DNA of 64,000 nt from Styela clava (lineage: Eukaryota > Chordata > Ascidiacea > Stolidobranchia > Styelidae), in NCBI RefSeq assembly GCF_964204865.1, contig NC_135251.1:11966001-12030000 (forward strand). The letters run 5' to 3'. Positions 17,990 through 60,460 of this stretch are shown piece after piece. The translations under genes and the position numbers were made by a program. Numbering within the stretch: position 1 is the first letter of the stretch; each line of letters starts with the position of its first letter. Under the pieces are notes generated by a model. That model did no database searches and had not been told where the DNA came from. It was given only the letters and a program-made list of their open reading frames with translations.

Positions 17990-18600
17990 ATTCTGCCTCT
18001 TAAGAAGAACAATTTTGAAAGTTGTCAGCCACGTTTGGAACGGCATATCCTGTGGCAGATCTTCTTGCAAAATTAAACAACCGCTCATGTGGTGTTGCAT
18101 TTGTTGCGATGCACAATAGCGATCTGATAGAATGCAAAACATCCTGCCAACATTCAATTGGCAAACTTTTTGACATTAAAGCAAGTTTTATTCCTTTCCG
18201 AATTGTACCATTGCACTTTTCTACTTGACCATTCGCCGACGGATTGTAAGGAGTTGTTCCACTGTGAGAAACACCCTTTTCTTGCAAAAATCTTTTGAAC
18301 TCACAACTCATGAAAGCCGAACCGCGGTCAGTATGTATGTAAGCAGGCATTCCATATGAAGCAAAAATTGGAGTTAAGACTTTTTATGACACTGGTGTCA
18401 TGAAACATCAGGTGTTGGAATAGTGAAGGGAAATCGTGAAAACTCGTCAATTACGCAGAGAAAATTTTTAGGTTTTAGCTCTCTGCATGCACGATAATTC
18501 AAGACAGTTCTCTTAACGTCTTCCATCGAGTAAGGTGAATTACGGACTTTAACAAAATGAGCGAATCTAGATATATCTGGATGGCATAATGCATCATGTT
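17990..18600 (-). pseudogene. LTR-retrotransposon integrase fragment
   Basis: Minus-strand reading gives an HHCC-like zinc segment (ALCHPDISRFAHFVK near 18590-18550, then RACRELKP). It is followed by the catalytic core with VIDEFSRFPFT near 18450, IHTDRGSAFMSCEFKRFL near 18340-18285 and TTPYNPSANGQVEKCNG near 18260-18210. This is a Ty3/Gypsy-type integrase. The frame is broken around 18400, so it cannot make a full protein. The pol region that should lie between gag and integrase is almost wholly deleted. Confidence 0.75.
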
Positions 18601-50723: not shown

Positions 50724-51284
50724 TCATGCATATAATAACCAGAACATTAATATACAAGCAATTCCAAGGAAGATTCTCGACAGCATTTGTTCATCTTGAT
50801 AATTAGGGTTATCTGGCCTCGGAGGGGGAGGTCGGCCGTCATTTATGTTAAAAAACGTTCCGAAAAGTCCAAAGGGAAAAGCACCAATACCGAATGACAT
50901 CTGAAATCCGCCATCACCAAAATTAAATCCGTGAAATCCATTCCTATTTTCTGGCTCTGGTCTCTGAGCTTGTGGCCTTTTAGGAATCTTATTCCGTGGA
51001 TCTTCCTGCTTGGTGCTACCTCGTCCGTAAAGAGGAATAACTTTGTCTCTATCGATTCCAGCTTTGCATACTGGGCATTCCTGTCGATGTGGTCTTGTTT
51101 CCAACCATTGAAGAAGACATGGCCAACAGAATAAGTGTCCACATAAACTAATGACAGCATCATTAGCTTCATCTAAACATATATTGCATTCAAATTGGCT
51201 GTTTTTATTCGCAGAAGCATTAGATGGTTCACTCGATGAATTTTCTCCATTTACTTCTTCGGATTTTGGTGTAGACTCGGCCAT
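50724..51284 (-). CDS. RNF185: RNF185/RNF5-type RING E3 ubiquitin ligase
   Basis: Single open frame of 186 aa. Ser/Asn/Glu-rich N terminus, then a C3HC4 RING with Cys33, Cys36, Cys48, His50, Cys53, Cys56, Cys70 and Cys73 ([20 protein letters not shown] opens it), then the family signature VIPLYGRG (82-89). Two hydrophobic stretches follow near the C terminus: [15 protein letters not shown] (131-145) and [16 protein letters not shown] (171-186). RNF185 and RNF5 are ER and mitochondrial membrane ligases that act in ER-associated degradation, with the RING in the cytosol. Length (186) lies between vertebrate RNF5 (180) and RNF185 (192), so the symbol may stand for their common ancestor. No intron interrupts the frame, whereas vertebrate orthologues have several; this could be intron loss or a functional retrocopy. 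Confidence 0.93.
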
Positions 51285-51309
51285 TGATATGTAATGTTCA
51301 GAAAGTTCT

Positions 51310-52350
51310 AAGTAATTAGTTTGATTCTGTCGAAAATATTAAGATGATTATGAAATGTCGTAACCTAAGCATTCGTTTTTAATAATATTTGTTCACAGTA
51401 AAAAAAAAGTAAACCTAATCATTTGCAAAAATTTACTCCTAAGTAAAGTCAAGAAAAACGACACTCATATAGATGAAAATACATAAAGTTTTTTGCTCTT
51501 GTCGCTGTGTTTAATCTTTGGCCATTTCGCTCATTTTAATGCGCATAGCCGCATTCTCTTCTCTTGCCTGATTTGAAACGTACACATTTTAGATTAAAAT
51601 GGTGTTGTTAATGGAAGTGGTCATGTTTGCTCACTCAAAGGTAATAAATTAATTGAAACATGCGCGCACATACATACATCTATACATACAGACATACAAT
51701 CACGCAGACAAAATAAAATCAGAAGGGAAAAAAAAAGAAAAACATTAGACCGCCATCGGGTGCGAATGTGGTATTAAACAGTGGAGTACCGGAGTAAGAA
51801 ATTTCAAGACTAAAACTTGGAAAACCGGACAAACAGGATTGAATACAGACTAGCTTGTATATCATTTATACATTGGAGCTGCTTTAAAAAGATTTGCGTT
51901 GATCATTTGTTGACAGCAAGCTCCGGAATGTTGGACTTTGCTAAGACTAAAACATTTACTCCAATTTCTACGTATTCGAACCAATTTTGTAACATACAGA
52001 CATACGAAGCAACGCCCAAAACTAGTTTTCATGTTTGTTGTTTAGCTTTATTTGTTTACAAAAAACAGCAGCTAATCAATTATTTGTTATTATTGGTATT
52101 CACATTTCGGCACAGGCACCGTCACATAACTATTTGTTTTTATATTCTACACAGCTTTCACTCATCAAAATTAGTAAGCTTCGCCCGTGAAATTCATTTT
52201 CTGGTGATCATGTACTTCGTTCATTAATTTATTCTAGTATGATTGTCATGATGTGTAATCATTTTCCTGTTTTGCCCATTTTCCCGACCTTCCAGTTGCC
52301 CTTGTCTGTGTTTTGTTATTTTAATTTGTGTTGTAGACGAAAGATCGAAA
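51310..52350. other. Intergenic, one unassigned open frame
   Basis: An open frame of 136 codons at 51817-52227 on the plus strand has no motif I recognise and ends in a hydrophobic stretch. Its 3' side (52225-52335) resembles a LINE 3' tail also seen at 54330-54480. Probably not a gene. Confidence 0.35.
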
Positions 52351-57720: not shown

Positions 57721-57727
57721 TATAAAA
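57721..57727 (+). promoter_or_regulatory. Probable TATA box of the peptide gene
   Basis: The string tataaaa lies 79 bp upstream of the ATG at 57800, which would place transcription start near 57750 and give a 5' UTR of about 50 bp. The match and spacing are seen; promoter activity is inferred. Confidence 0.45.
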
Positions 57728-57799: not shown

Positions 57800-60418
57800 A
57801 TGTCGGCAAAGATTGCAGTATTTATCATGGCCATGATGGTCTGCAGTTTTGGATTGATCAGGTTAGTTGACATTGATTGCTTCATTGCGCCATCGAATGT
57901 TGTCACTTTTCAAACATTCTAATTTATTTTAATTTTGAATTGAAATGAACCATTAAATCCTACCAATGTCTTTCAACCGGATTTTTTATAATTACTAACT
58001 AATCAATATTCATTCATTTTCCACAGCGCAAAGACTCTCGGGAATCGTAAGTTGATGACTTTTCATTGTCTAACTGTAAATAATTGTGTCGAATAAGTTC
58101 TAAACTTCAACTACAATTTCTTTATTTCGTGCGAAATGTTTCAAAATTGAGTTTAGTTTTCTTTTAGAAACTCTTTAAATTGTTGGAGTTTGATTGAACA
58201 TGTGACTCACTTTGCCTGATACTTTCAATTTTGTAGAAAGTTTTTGGATTCATGTTTCCCAAATTTTTCCGAAAAAGCATCGATCAAAATACAGTTTTTT
58301 TCTCAAACTTTTTAAAATATGAAACACCAAAACTAGCGTAACTCAATATTTTGATATTTGATAGTTTGTCTGATTTTGGTCGGCATGTTATTTAAAACTT
58401 TTTTCTATGCAATGAATACGCGGTATGATTTTTCTACATTTTAATTTGTCTCTATCGCAATACGTGTGTGTGTTGACAAAAATAAATCCTTCATTTTCTC
58501 TTATACCGGTATGTTGGTTGTGATCACGAAAACAGGTCTGGACTCGTGTTCTACACCCTTGAATTACCAAATAACAAAACGCCGATTTTTTCTCCCAGGG
58601 GATGAGAAGTCCGGCATTTTGTGGATGCCAGATCCACCAATTATTTAACCTCATATGTCGTGGGACAACAATGATCGTGAGAGATTTTGGGGTTTGTTCG
58701 TTCCTTTGGGGAAAAAAGCCATCGAGGAAATAGGTAATTCTAAATAGTATCTAATACAAGTGACATTTCAATCAAAATGTTGAAATTTCAGTTCGTTACG
58801 ATATTTTTGTAACATCAACAGGTGATCAGTCTAAGAAGACATTGCGTTCGCCCGATAACGAAGATAATGAGAGATTTTGGGGTTTGTTCGTTCCTTTGGT
58901 GAAAAAAGCTATCGAGGAAATAGGTAATTCTAAATAGTATCTAATACAAGTGACATTTCAATCAAAATGTTGCAATTTCAGTTCTTTACGATATTATTAT
59001 AATAATAACAGGTGATCAGTCTAAGAAGATATTGCGTTCGCCCGGAAATAAAGTTAATGAGAGATTTTGGGGTTTGTTCGTTCCATTGGTAAAAAAAGCT
59101 ATCGAGGAAATAGGTAATTCTGAATAGTATCTAATACAAGTGACATTTCAATCAAAATATTGAAATTTCAGTTCTTTACGATATTTTTGTAACATTAACA
59201 GGTGATCAGTCTAAGAAGACATTGCGTTCGCCCGATAACGAAGATAATGAGAGATTTTGGGGTTTGTTCGTTCCTTTGGTGAAAAAAGCCATCGAGGAAA
59301 TAGGTAATTCTAAATAGTATCTAATACAAGTGACATTTCAATCAAAATATTGAAATTTCAGTTCTTTACGATATTTTTGTAACATTAACAGGTGATCAGT
59401 CTAAGAAGACATTGCGTTCGCCCGATAACGAAGATAATGAGAGATTTTGGGGTTTGTTCGTTCCTTTGGTGAAAAAAGCCATCGAGGAAATAGGTAATTC
59501 TAAATAGTATCTAATACAAGTGACATTTCAATCAAAATATTGAAATTTCAGTTCTTTACGATATTTTTGTAACATTAACAGGTGATCAGTCTAAGAAGAC
59601 ATTGCGTTCGCCTGATAACGAAGATAATGAGAGATTGTGGGGTTTGTTCGTTCCTTTGGTGAAAAAAGCTATCGAGGAAATAGGTAATTCTGAATACTGA
59701 ATAGTATCTAATACAAGTGACATTTCAATCAAAATGTTGAAATTTCAGTTCTTTACGATATTATTATAATAATAACAGGTGATCAGTCTAAGAAGACATT
59801 GCGTTCGCCCGACAATGAAGATAATGAGAGAATGTGGCCTGCTGGCATGTTTAGTTGGGGAGTACTGGGAAACAAGGACACAGGTAATTATAAATAGTAT
59901 CTTAATTTTCTTGGTTGAATAATCAGATTGCATTACTTATGTATGCGGAAAATTTATTTATTTTTCCGAAATGCTTTGCAATTTCTGAATAAATTTTAAA
60001 TAACAGATATGAATTATTCTGAATTTTAAGCTTTGTAACAATTGTTGTGATTGTAACAGGTGACCAATCCGAAGAAGCATCGCGTTCATTTGATGACAAC
60101 GATCACGAAAAGGGTACATATTGGACCTGGTGGATGCGCTGAAAACGTTGATCCTATAGGACAGGTAATTGTAATTATGATTTGTATGATATTGTTTGTT
60201 TGCGATTTTCCGTTTGTCTTTAATATTTAAACATGCATTAGCTTTCGTATCATTTCGACATTTGATATATATATATACCTTAATTGATTATGCTTTGCTA
60301 CCTTGATACTTCACAATGTATAACAGTGTATTTATTAATTTTTTTTCCATGTTTGGATCTTCTTCCTGACAATACAGATGACGACTCGATAGTGACGGAT
60401 TCAGACAACGAATTTTGA
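57800..60418 (+). CDS. Secreted multi-repeat peptide precursor, tandem-exon gene
   Basis: I do not recognise the family. Exon 1 is 57800-57861 and starts at the ATG of a hydrophobic signal peptide (MSAKIAVFIMAMMVCSFGLI). Exon 2 is a 20-nt mini-exon, 58027-58046. Five near-identical 102-nt exons follow at 58822-58923, 59012-59113, 59202-59303, 59392-59493 and 59582-59683. A divergent 105-nt exon is at 59779-59883 and the last exon is 60378-60418 with stop TGA. All repeat exons are phase 1-1 with acag/gtaat borders. The join reads 738 nt, 245 aa. Each repeat encodes a hydrophilic spacer (DQSKKTLRSPDNEDNE) and an amphipathic core (RFWGLFVPLVKKAIEEIG) whose final Gly precedes Asp-Gln. Seen: frame, phases, repeats. 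Inferred: a secreted precursor cut into several short, possibly C-amidated peptides (antimicrobial or signalling). Two further exon-like copies, 58599-58733 and 60060-60164, carry in-frame stops and are left out of this model. Confidence 0.75.
58599..60164 (+). repeat. 190-bp exon-intron tandem array in the peptide gene
   Basis: Eight exon-like copies lie head to tail. Copies 1-5 have exactly 102 bp of exon and 88 bp of intron after them (95 bp after copy 5). Copies 3 and 4 (59202-59391 and 59392-59581) are identical by eye over all 190 bp, intron included, so duplication or conversion is recent. Copy 2 differs in its spacer by amino-acid changes (Asp to Gly, Glu to Lys, Asp to Val), but its core differs only at silent third positions. 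Copy 5 has Leu for Phe in the core. Copy 6 keeps the spacer and has an unrelated core (RMWPAGMFSWGVLGNKDT). Copy 0 (58599-58733) has a longer unrelated 5' part with TAA at 58646. Copy 7 (60060-60164) is the most diverged, with TGA at 60140 and another at 60149. Confidence 0.85.
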
Positions 60419-60454
60419 TTTGAATATTTTTTCTTGCCAAACCTTATTATTCAG

Positions 60455-60460
60455 AATAAA
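60455..60460 (+). terminator. Polyadenylation signal AATAAA of the peptide gene
   Basis: A canonical AATAAA lies 37 bp after the TGA at 60416-60418. The flanking 3' UTR is alignable with the inverted paralogue near 63.6 kb, although the hexamer itself is not preserved there. Confidence 0.6.

Follow-up and report, generated by a model that had tools for sequence, protein, structure and literature searches.

A clavanin-like opening and tandem core exons in a candidate peptide gene family of Styela clava

Introduction

Tandem duplication of peptide exons is known from pipid frogs. It has been described for the magainin and caerulein genes of Xenopus laevis, for which unequal crossing-over and dosage have been proposed (PMC3731216), and the hymenochirins of Hymenochirus carry two to six repeats, with alternative splicing suggested (PMC3899252). 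Among ascidians, clavanin precursors have been said to resemble amphibian prepropeptides (PMC10608444), and clavanin A is C-terminally amidated (PMC4904370; PMC10608444); here and below, statements on published systems follow excerpts of the cited papers. We describe a locus on the plus strand of the Styela clava genome, at 57.7-60.5 kb of a 64,000-nucleotide (nt) window (the whole stretch of DNA analysed, C2:11966001-12030000), that has the anatomy of a gene for a multi-copy peptide precursor, belongs to a family with separately amplified core exons, and opens with two exons laid out like those of the clavanin genes.

Results

The gene plan read from the window is complete, running from a TATA box (TATAAA, 57721..57726, 79 nt 5' of the ATG) to a poly(A) signal (AATAAA, 60455..60460), with every element on the plus strand. 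The coding part of exon 1 (57800..57861, 62 nt) ends in phase 2 and encodes the signal peptide MSAKIAVFIMAMMVCSFGLI, assigned by eye; a 20-nt mini-exon reading (S)AKTLGN(R) follows between CACAG and GTAAGT (58027..58046) and takes the frame from phase 2 to phase 1. Beyond it lies a tandem array for which Tandem Repeats Finder gives a period of 190, 6.0 copies and a score of 2028, in agreement with an earlier note on this DNA, which had described a signal exon and a mini-exon feeding a 190-bp repeat of a 102-bp exon and an 88-bp intron. Five intact units, each a phase 1-1 exon of 102 nt (34 codons) between ...AACAG and GTAATT with 88-bp introns, lie at 58822..58923, 59012..59113, 59202..59303, 59392..59493 and 59582..59683. 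Core exon 1 encodes GDQSKKTLRSPDNEDNER followed by the core FWGLFVPLVKKAIEEI; core exon 2 has an identical core and four changed spacer residues, core exons 3 and 4 are identical, and core exon 5 has Leu for Phe at the first core residue. The joined precursor starts MSAKIAVFIMAMMVCSFGLISAKTLGNR and continues with repeated units DQSKKTLRSPDNEDNER-FWGLFVPLVKKAIEEI-G.

Several details of the units differ from the first description. The earlier note had every unit bearing intact splice borders, which is true of the five 102-nt units but not of the first, a dead 3' part of a core exon (58664..58733, 90% identical over 70 nt). This unit has kept its donor, but the AACAG acceptor is missing and its frame is interrupted by a TAA at 58646-58648. 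Owing to the missing acceptor and the stop in the core's frame this unit cannot be included in frame, and its use as an exon was ruled out. The sixth core exon (59779..59883, 105 nt) is a divergent copy that shares the spacer and encodes a second core type, MWPAGMFSWGVLGNKDT. An exon-like stretch at 60060..60164, with the spacer and then ...GTYWTWWMR-stop, could be an alternative end of the coding sequence or else a relic that splicing skips; stops are also present in four of its relatives (C2:12035509, C2:16552394, C3:2792421 and C3:10635360). The last coding exon (60378..60418) starts in phase 1, encodes the acidic DDDSIVTDSDNEF-stop and has relatives in near and distant paralogues. Two C-terminal endings are thus possible, ...WWMR-stop with 60060-60164 used and ...DDDSIVTDSDNEF-stop with it skipped. 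Because the core exons are phase 1-1, skipping leaves the frame unbroken, and the many precursor lengths suggested previously are possible as far as the phases go.

Exon pairs within the array are 0.902-1.0 identical and intron pairs 0.92-1.0. No selection signal was found among the window-array copies, exons and introns being about equally similar, and the copies are therefore young and silent on selection. The locus is nonetheless a real, intact-looking gene, as the earlier note had held, and its product is predicted to be spliced and secreted as a multi-copy peptide precursor. This anatomy and the paralogous arrays described below support its origin from a phase 1-1 exon duplicated in tandem. 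The arrangement is that of the pipid-type genes, with a single signal exon in front of the tandem phase-symmetric peptide exons and a single end exon behind them. Inverted repeats flank the gene (56597-56908/61737-62054 and 60219-60505/63536-63814, 83-91% alike), the inner pair matching its 3' end with that of a minus-strand neighbour starting at C2:12032308.

Genome searches covered 376.6 Mb in 379 contigs. A protein search with the signal peptide located 12 family signal exons; nine lie on C3 and the other three on C2, close to the window. In 15 of 16 family and clavanin-type genes TATAAA lies 71-90 nt 5' of the ATG; it is missing in C2:12032308. Besides the window array, in which the FWGLFVPLVKKAIEEI core is multiplied (190 bp x5), there is a C2 array of a TWFLWVMG core with a 447-bp period, where four 90-nt exons and one 99-nt exon are intact, and an array at C3 2.79 Mb of 14 copies of 183-184 bp with an IWPAFFAWG/LWPASFVWG core. 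At C3 17.6 Mb three genes have a period of ~296 bp, and four sets repeat every 242-244 bp. Since both the periods (~183, 190, 242, 296 and 447 bp) and the cores differ, different core exons have been amplified separately.

A mechanical test for an AG acceptor, an open phase-1 frame and a GT donor was passed by 58 of 74 candidate core exons, one of which, C3:10637496, is doubtful because its reading enters the next unit. The intact exons measure 90, 96, 99, 102, 105 or 111 nt, lengths that are divisible by three in part because the test requires it. Several of the 16 failing exons contain stops, two lack only the acceptor and two, at 17.6 Mb, lack only the donor. Phase, frame and splice sites are kept in paralogues on another contig, and a gene-less minisatellite was ruled out on this ground. 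Also kept between paralogues is the pattern of a spacer, Arg or Lys, and a hydrophobic helical core: Glu-Arg or Glu-Lys precedes the core in nearly all intact exons listed, with KKIFWW in two donor-less exons and, in a single 90-nt copy, KR. Behind the core, the 17.6-Mb genes carry Lys-Arg, Glu-Arg or Gln-Arg ahead of the junction Gly.

The signal exon differs between the 17.6-Mb group and the rest by a mean nonsynonymous divergence (dN) of 0.172 and a mean synonymous divergence (dS) of 0.695, with dN below dS in 36/36 pairs, which share ancestry and are not independent. When exon 1 was searched together with 75 nt upstream, the alignments of the five 17.6-Mb matches listed were confined to a stretch that begins ~5-8 nt ahead of the ATG and stops just beyond exon 1. 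The 17.6-Mb region (C3:17605300-17650850) holds three divergent gene pairs ~20 kb apart and a fourth, minus-strand set (17641462) in which no signal exon was detected; the last exons of its genes read ...RVYFRF-stop. Another divergent pair of signal exons lies at C3 10.64 Mb. An isolated core-like fragment, HSSFDNKDQGNISWWVHIVREIVRAVKRG, 69% identical to the 17.6-Mb core and with a donor-like GTAAAG, was seen at C17:3137431-3137517 (plus strand), and the genome-wide signal-peptide search found no family signal exon on that contig.

Searching the genome with PF05452 up to E 1 gave matches on C1 and C10 only (E 2.0e-32 and 5.3e-32). In the clavanin genes L044 and L045 the signal exon measures 47 nt and leaves the frame in phase 2. 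Next come a 20-nt mini-exon TGCAAAATCTCTGGAGGAAA, encoding (N/S)AKSLE, AKSLEE, between CAG and GTGAGT, and a third exon that starts in phase 1 with RKSEEEK and continues with the clavanin core and GDDQQDNGK, both genes reading ...HVF-G-DDQQ. One clavanin gene encodes VFHLLGKIIHHVGNFVYGFSHVF, which fits clavanin C, described in the excerpt as the one clavanin whose third residue is His and as binding zinc through His10, 11 and 21 (PMC8424629).

A phase-2 signal exon followed by a 20-nt, phase 2-to-1, AKSLE-like mini-exon was recovered by regular expression in 10/12 family genes and 4/4 clavanin-type genes; the failures were C2:12032308 and C3:10640114, the latter still having a blastn match to the mini-exon. 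Family mini-exons are identical to that of clavanin at 12-15 of 20 positions. Among 53 YAG-N20-GTR stretches on both strands of the window, the gene's own mini-exon scores 12 against the clavanin mini-exon, one scores 11 and 51 score at most 9; of all window 20-mers, a fraction of 0.0017 reaches at least 12 matches and 0.0001 at least 14. A pattern drawn from the mini-exons, with one mismatch allowed, matches 19 places genome-wide, 12 of them family sites and 7 clavanin-type sites, against 0 for the reversed control. Alignment of FGLISAKTLGNRD with LGINAKSLEERK by hhalign covers 15 columns over the mini-exon with a probability of 79.9 and an E of 1.4e-05 for the single comparison. Common descent of the export module, that is the signal exon and mini-exon, in the window family and the clavanin genes is in our view likely, and the family has the look of a divergent branch of the clavanin genes in which exons have multiplied. 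The 20-nt mini-exon and the AKSLE peptide turn what had been noted as a loose reminder of ascidian antimicrobial precursors into a probable homology with the clavanin genes.

Further clavanin-type genes were seen. L047 (C1:22042800-22048800, minus strand) has the same signal exon and mini-exon, and in its 338-residue third exon YDQQDN occurs 22 times, mostly in GKGYYPPTYDQQDN repeats; L046 (C10:21153000-21159000, minus strand) has a third exon of 397 residues with repeated DSAKTWG and 18 YDQQDN motifs. Clavanin-type mini-exons are also present in L056 (C3:16861313), with YYPHHYDQQDNGKW repeats in a candidate third exon, in L067 (C13:3398030), with GKGWHYDQQDA repeats in a candidate third exon, and in L065 (C1:22073066), where only short third-exon candidates were seen. 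L056, L065 and L067 look like multiplied clavanin C-terminal propieces.

The window core FWGLFVPLVKKAIEEI has a helical moment of 0.50 (shuffle p 0.0108), so that the amphipathic core of the earlier note stands for the 102-nt units, though not for the sixth exon. AlphaFold2 predicts a helix at residues 11-32 of 33 with a mean predicted local distance difference test score of ~90 over the core. The terminal Gly of each unit, which the note had proposed as a site of amidation, has its codon divided between two exons (G/GT) and is therefore present with either core type; amidation stays plausible for the window core from the resemblance of its junction, IG/DQ, to the clavanin context F-G-DDQQ. 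By clavanin precedent the predicted mature peptide would be FWGLFVPLVKKAIEEI with a free or amidated end. In the largest cluster (17.6 Mb) the core ends in KR before the Gly. No His occurs in the scored family cores except in the C17 fragment.

That no named family has this core holds for Pfam, NCBIfam, the Protein Data Bank (PDB) and open PubMed Central (PMC) text. Pfam returned 11 weak names for the joined window protein, of which Rab3-GAP_cat_C (28.3 bits over a cut-off of 27) was not accepted; in none of the ten best does a single stretch pass alone, and only Exportin-T (E 0.26) has such a stretch, so that we take these names for sums over repeats and not domains. Among three further proteins searched against Pfam, one had no family and two had only names below the cut-off. 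NCBIfam gave no match, and the one PDB match (E 0.57) is not meaningful. Six strings taken from the family's sequences were not matched in open PMC text, a search that leaves outside most subscription papers and GenBank annotation, and no title on clavanin gene structure appeared among the 15 listed of 18 open-PMC matches for clavanin and exon. Within the literature searched, the tandem peptide-exon plan, known in frogs, seems unreported in the tunicate lineage.

Elsewhere in the window, a 204-residue open frame on the minus strand (50727-51338), apparently a single exon, contains a RING finger (zf-C3HC4, E 1.9e-10) and appears by eye to be RNF5/RNF185-like. An integrase core fragment (rve, E 1.1e-07, 32.5 bits against a cut-off of 32.6; 18003-18383, minus strand) probably derives from a transposable element. 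Rfam and tRNA scans of the window found nothing. On C9, a glycosyltransferase family 2 domain (GT2, 16177301-16177801) and a glycoside hydrolase family 6 domain (GH6, 16179895-16180164) lie on one strand ~2.1 kb apart; tunicates are marked by a cellulose synthase that includes a GH6 portion. Together with the two clavanin genes, this pair points to a tunicate, very probably Styela and probably S. clava. A search for COX1 gave no match in the assembly.

Discussion

The explanation we favour, and consider reasonably probable, is that a clavanin-type export module and tandem core exons together yield many secreted, cleaved, membrane-active host-defence peptides. A two-exon export module, common to clavanin genes, would feed tandem phase 1-1 exons, each supplying an acidic hydrophilic spacer that ends in Glu-Arg or Glu-Lys and then a hydrophobic core. 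Cleavage at two places, after the Arg/Lys of the spacer and beyond the core at Gly/Asp or Lys-Arg, would release helical, membrane-active peptides of ~16 residues such as FWGLFVPLVKKAIEEI, possibly amidated, that haemocytes or the pharynx may use in host defence. The core exon would be multiplied by unequal crossing-over between repeats, so that one transcript could give many peptides, and exon skipping would alter peptide number without a frame break. A host-defence role is likely, although unproven, because the opening exons appear to be shared with the clavanin genes. Since the window core is amphipathic but has a net charge of 0, it is read in the first place as a membrane-active defence peptide and not as a usual cationic antimicrobial.

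A number of observations weigh against this explanation. The window core has no net charge and no His, unlike cationic or His-rich antimicrobials: it departs from the cationic alpha-helical type in charge despite its amphipathicity (p 0.0108), and from the His-rich clavanin core of 23 residues in charge, in His and in its length of 16 residues. Paralogue cores range in charge from -2 to +2, some being negative, and the second core type MWPAGMFSWGVLGNKDT is non-amphipathic, with no helical moment. The AlphaFold2 helix was predicted from an input of five very similar sequences and with a predicted template-modelling score of 0.32. The cleavage route is conjecture because no dibasic site surrounds the window core, and the junction Gly may be only a splice-junction codon. 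The similarity to clavanin spans only ~15 aligned columns, and PF05452 has no match in four family proteins at E <= 10. The matches of the mini-exon pattern show specificity but not independent proof, because the pattern was built from most of these same genes.

Three other explanations have to be set beside it. The locus could encode a secreted polyprotein, uncut or cut into structural parts, of haemocyte granules, tunic or mucus matrix. Exon arrays extend a protein as readily as they multiply a peptide, and the export module can carry repetitive cargo, because three clavanin-type genes (L047, L046 and L067, read fully or partly) hold Tyr- or Trp-rich in-exon repeats in place of an antimicrobial core; the kept succession of spacer, Arg or Lys, and hydrophobic helical core nevertheless suggests a propeptide-peptide plan, and we regard a polyprotein as unlikely. 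Neuropeptide precursors commonly contain several near-identical copies, acidic spacers and a possible amidation Gly, and the repeated cores, amplified by copy number, could be receptor ligands of a multi-copy neuropeptide or hormone precursor. The window cores share these traits, they are neutral and not cationic, and the ...RVYFRF-stop of the 17.6-Mb last exons points the same way. Yet cores vary strongly between paralogues (FWGLFVPLVKKAIEEI, IFWWVPIVKEIVQAV, FPLQWIVPIVKAIKGL, IWPAFFAWGTLGDKDT), unlike a ligand held by its receptor, the export module is that of the clavanin genes, and the window core has no flanking dibasic site, so that a neuropeptide gene seems to us distinctly unlikely.

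The dead unit, the stop-bearing stretch 60060-60164, the degraded neighbour at C2:12032308 and the near-identity of exon and intron copies within the array would all fit a decaying gene or a non-coding, exon-like satellite. Against this, exon 6 and 5/5 complete 102-nt units have an open frame and a splice site at either end, the gene has a TATA box, a poly(A) signal and a constrained signal exon, and large intact arrays exist elsewhere; decay is accordingly improbable.

Beyond the favoured defence-peptide explanation, we propose more tentatively, as a possibility that we would not yet call probable, a modular system in Styela. One AKSLE export module would carry several payloads (a single antimicrobial core, in-exon Tyr/Trp-rich repeats, or core-exon arrays), and cores amplified separately at several loci would give neutral, Trp-rich membrane peptides of an undescribed type, their dose and mixture being governed by copy number and possibly by splicing; this would be a tunicate parallel, separately reached, to the frog-skin peptide genes. 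If so, the known clavanin genes, small and with a single core, would stand at one end of a larger, more inventive family, whose other members would have been missed because only their opening exons are held in common with clavanin genes. The arrays, of up to 14 copies, would show a peptide arsenal growing exon by exon in the sister group of the vertebrates, beside the pipid parallel, and would offer named, testable neutral peptides of a type that charge-based antimicrobial screens would overlook.

Among described systems, halocyntin of Halocynthia papillosa has, in the excerpt, an FWG start and an amphipathic helix in common with the window core but is 26 residues long against 16 and diverges after FWG (PMC4306955); three shared residues were ruled out as evidence of kinship. 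Ci-MAM, Ci-PAP and the other LCAMP precursors of Ciona are likewise ascidian and secreted; their signal peptide is conserved and one region is acidic. They differ, as excerpted, in consisting of a signal, a cationic helix and an anionic helix in 50-100 residues, with an MDRKIVFAL... or MNKSALL... signal and cationic cores (PMC7387483). The pipid-frog genes, compared by layout, also encode secreted defence-peptide precursors in tandem, near-identical peptide exons; in the portions of those papers used here they are cholecystokinin-type relatives in which exons 2 and 3 were duplicated, while in the window gene a single exon was (PMC3731216, PMC3899252). Closest are the clavanins (PF05452), haemocyte antimicrobials of Styela clava itself, which share with the window family the phase-2 signal exon, the 20-nt mini-exon, a phase-1 core exon, an acidic stretch ending in Lys/Arg before the core and Gly-Asp behind it. 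Clavanin genes combine a 47-nt signal exon with one core in one terminal exon, 23 residues long with 4 His in the copy scored, whereas the window family has a 62-nt signal exon and tandem phase 1-1 core exons that encode neutral or weakly charged cores of 12-17 residues.

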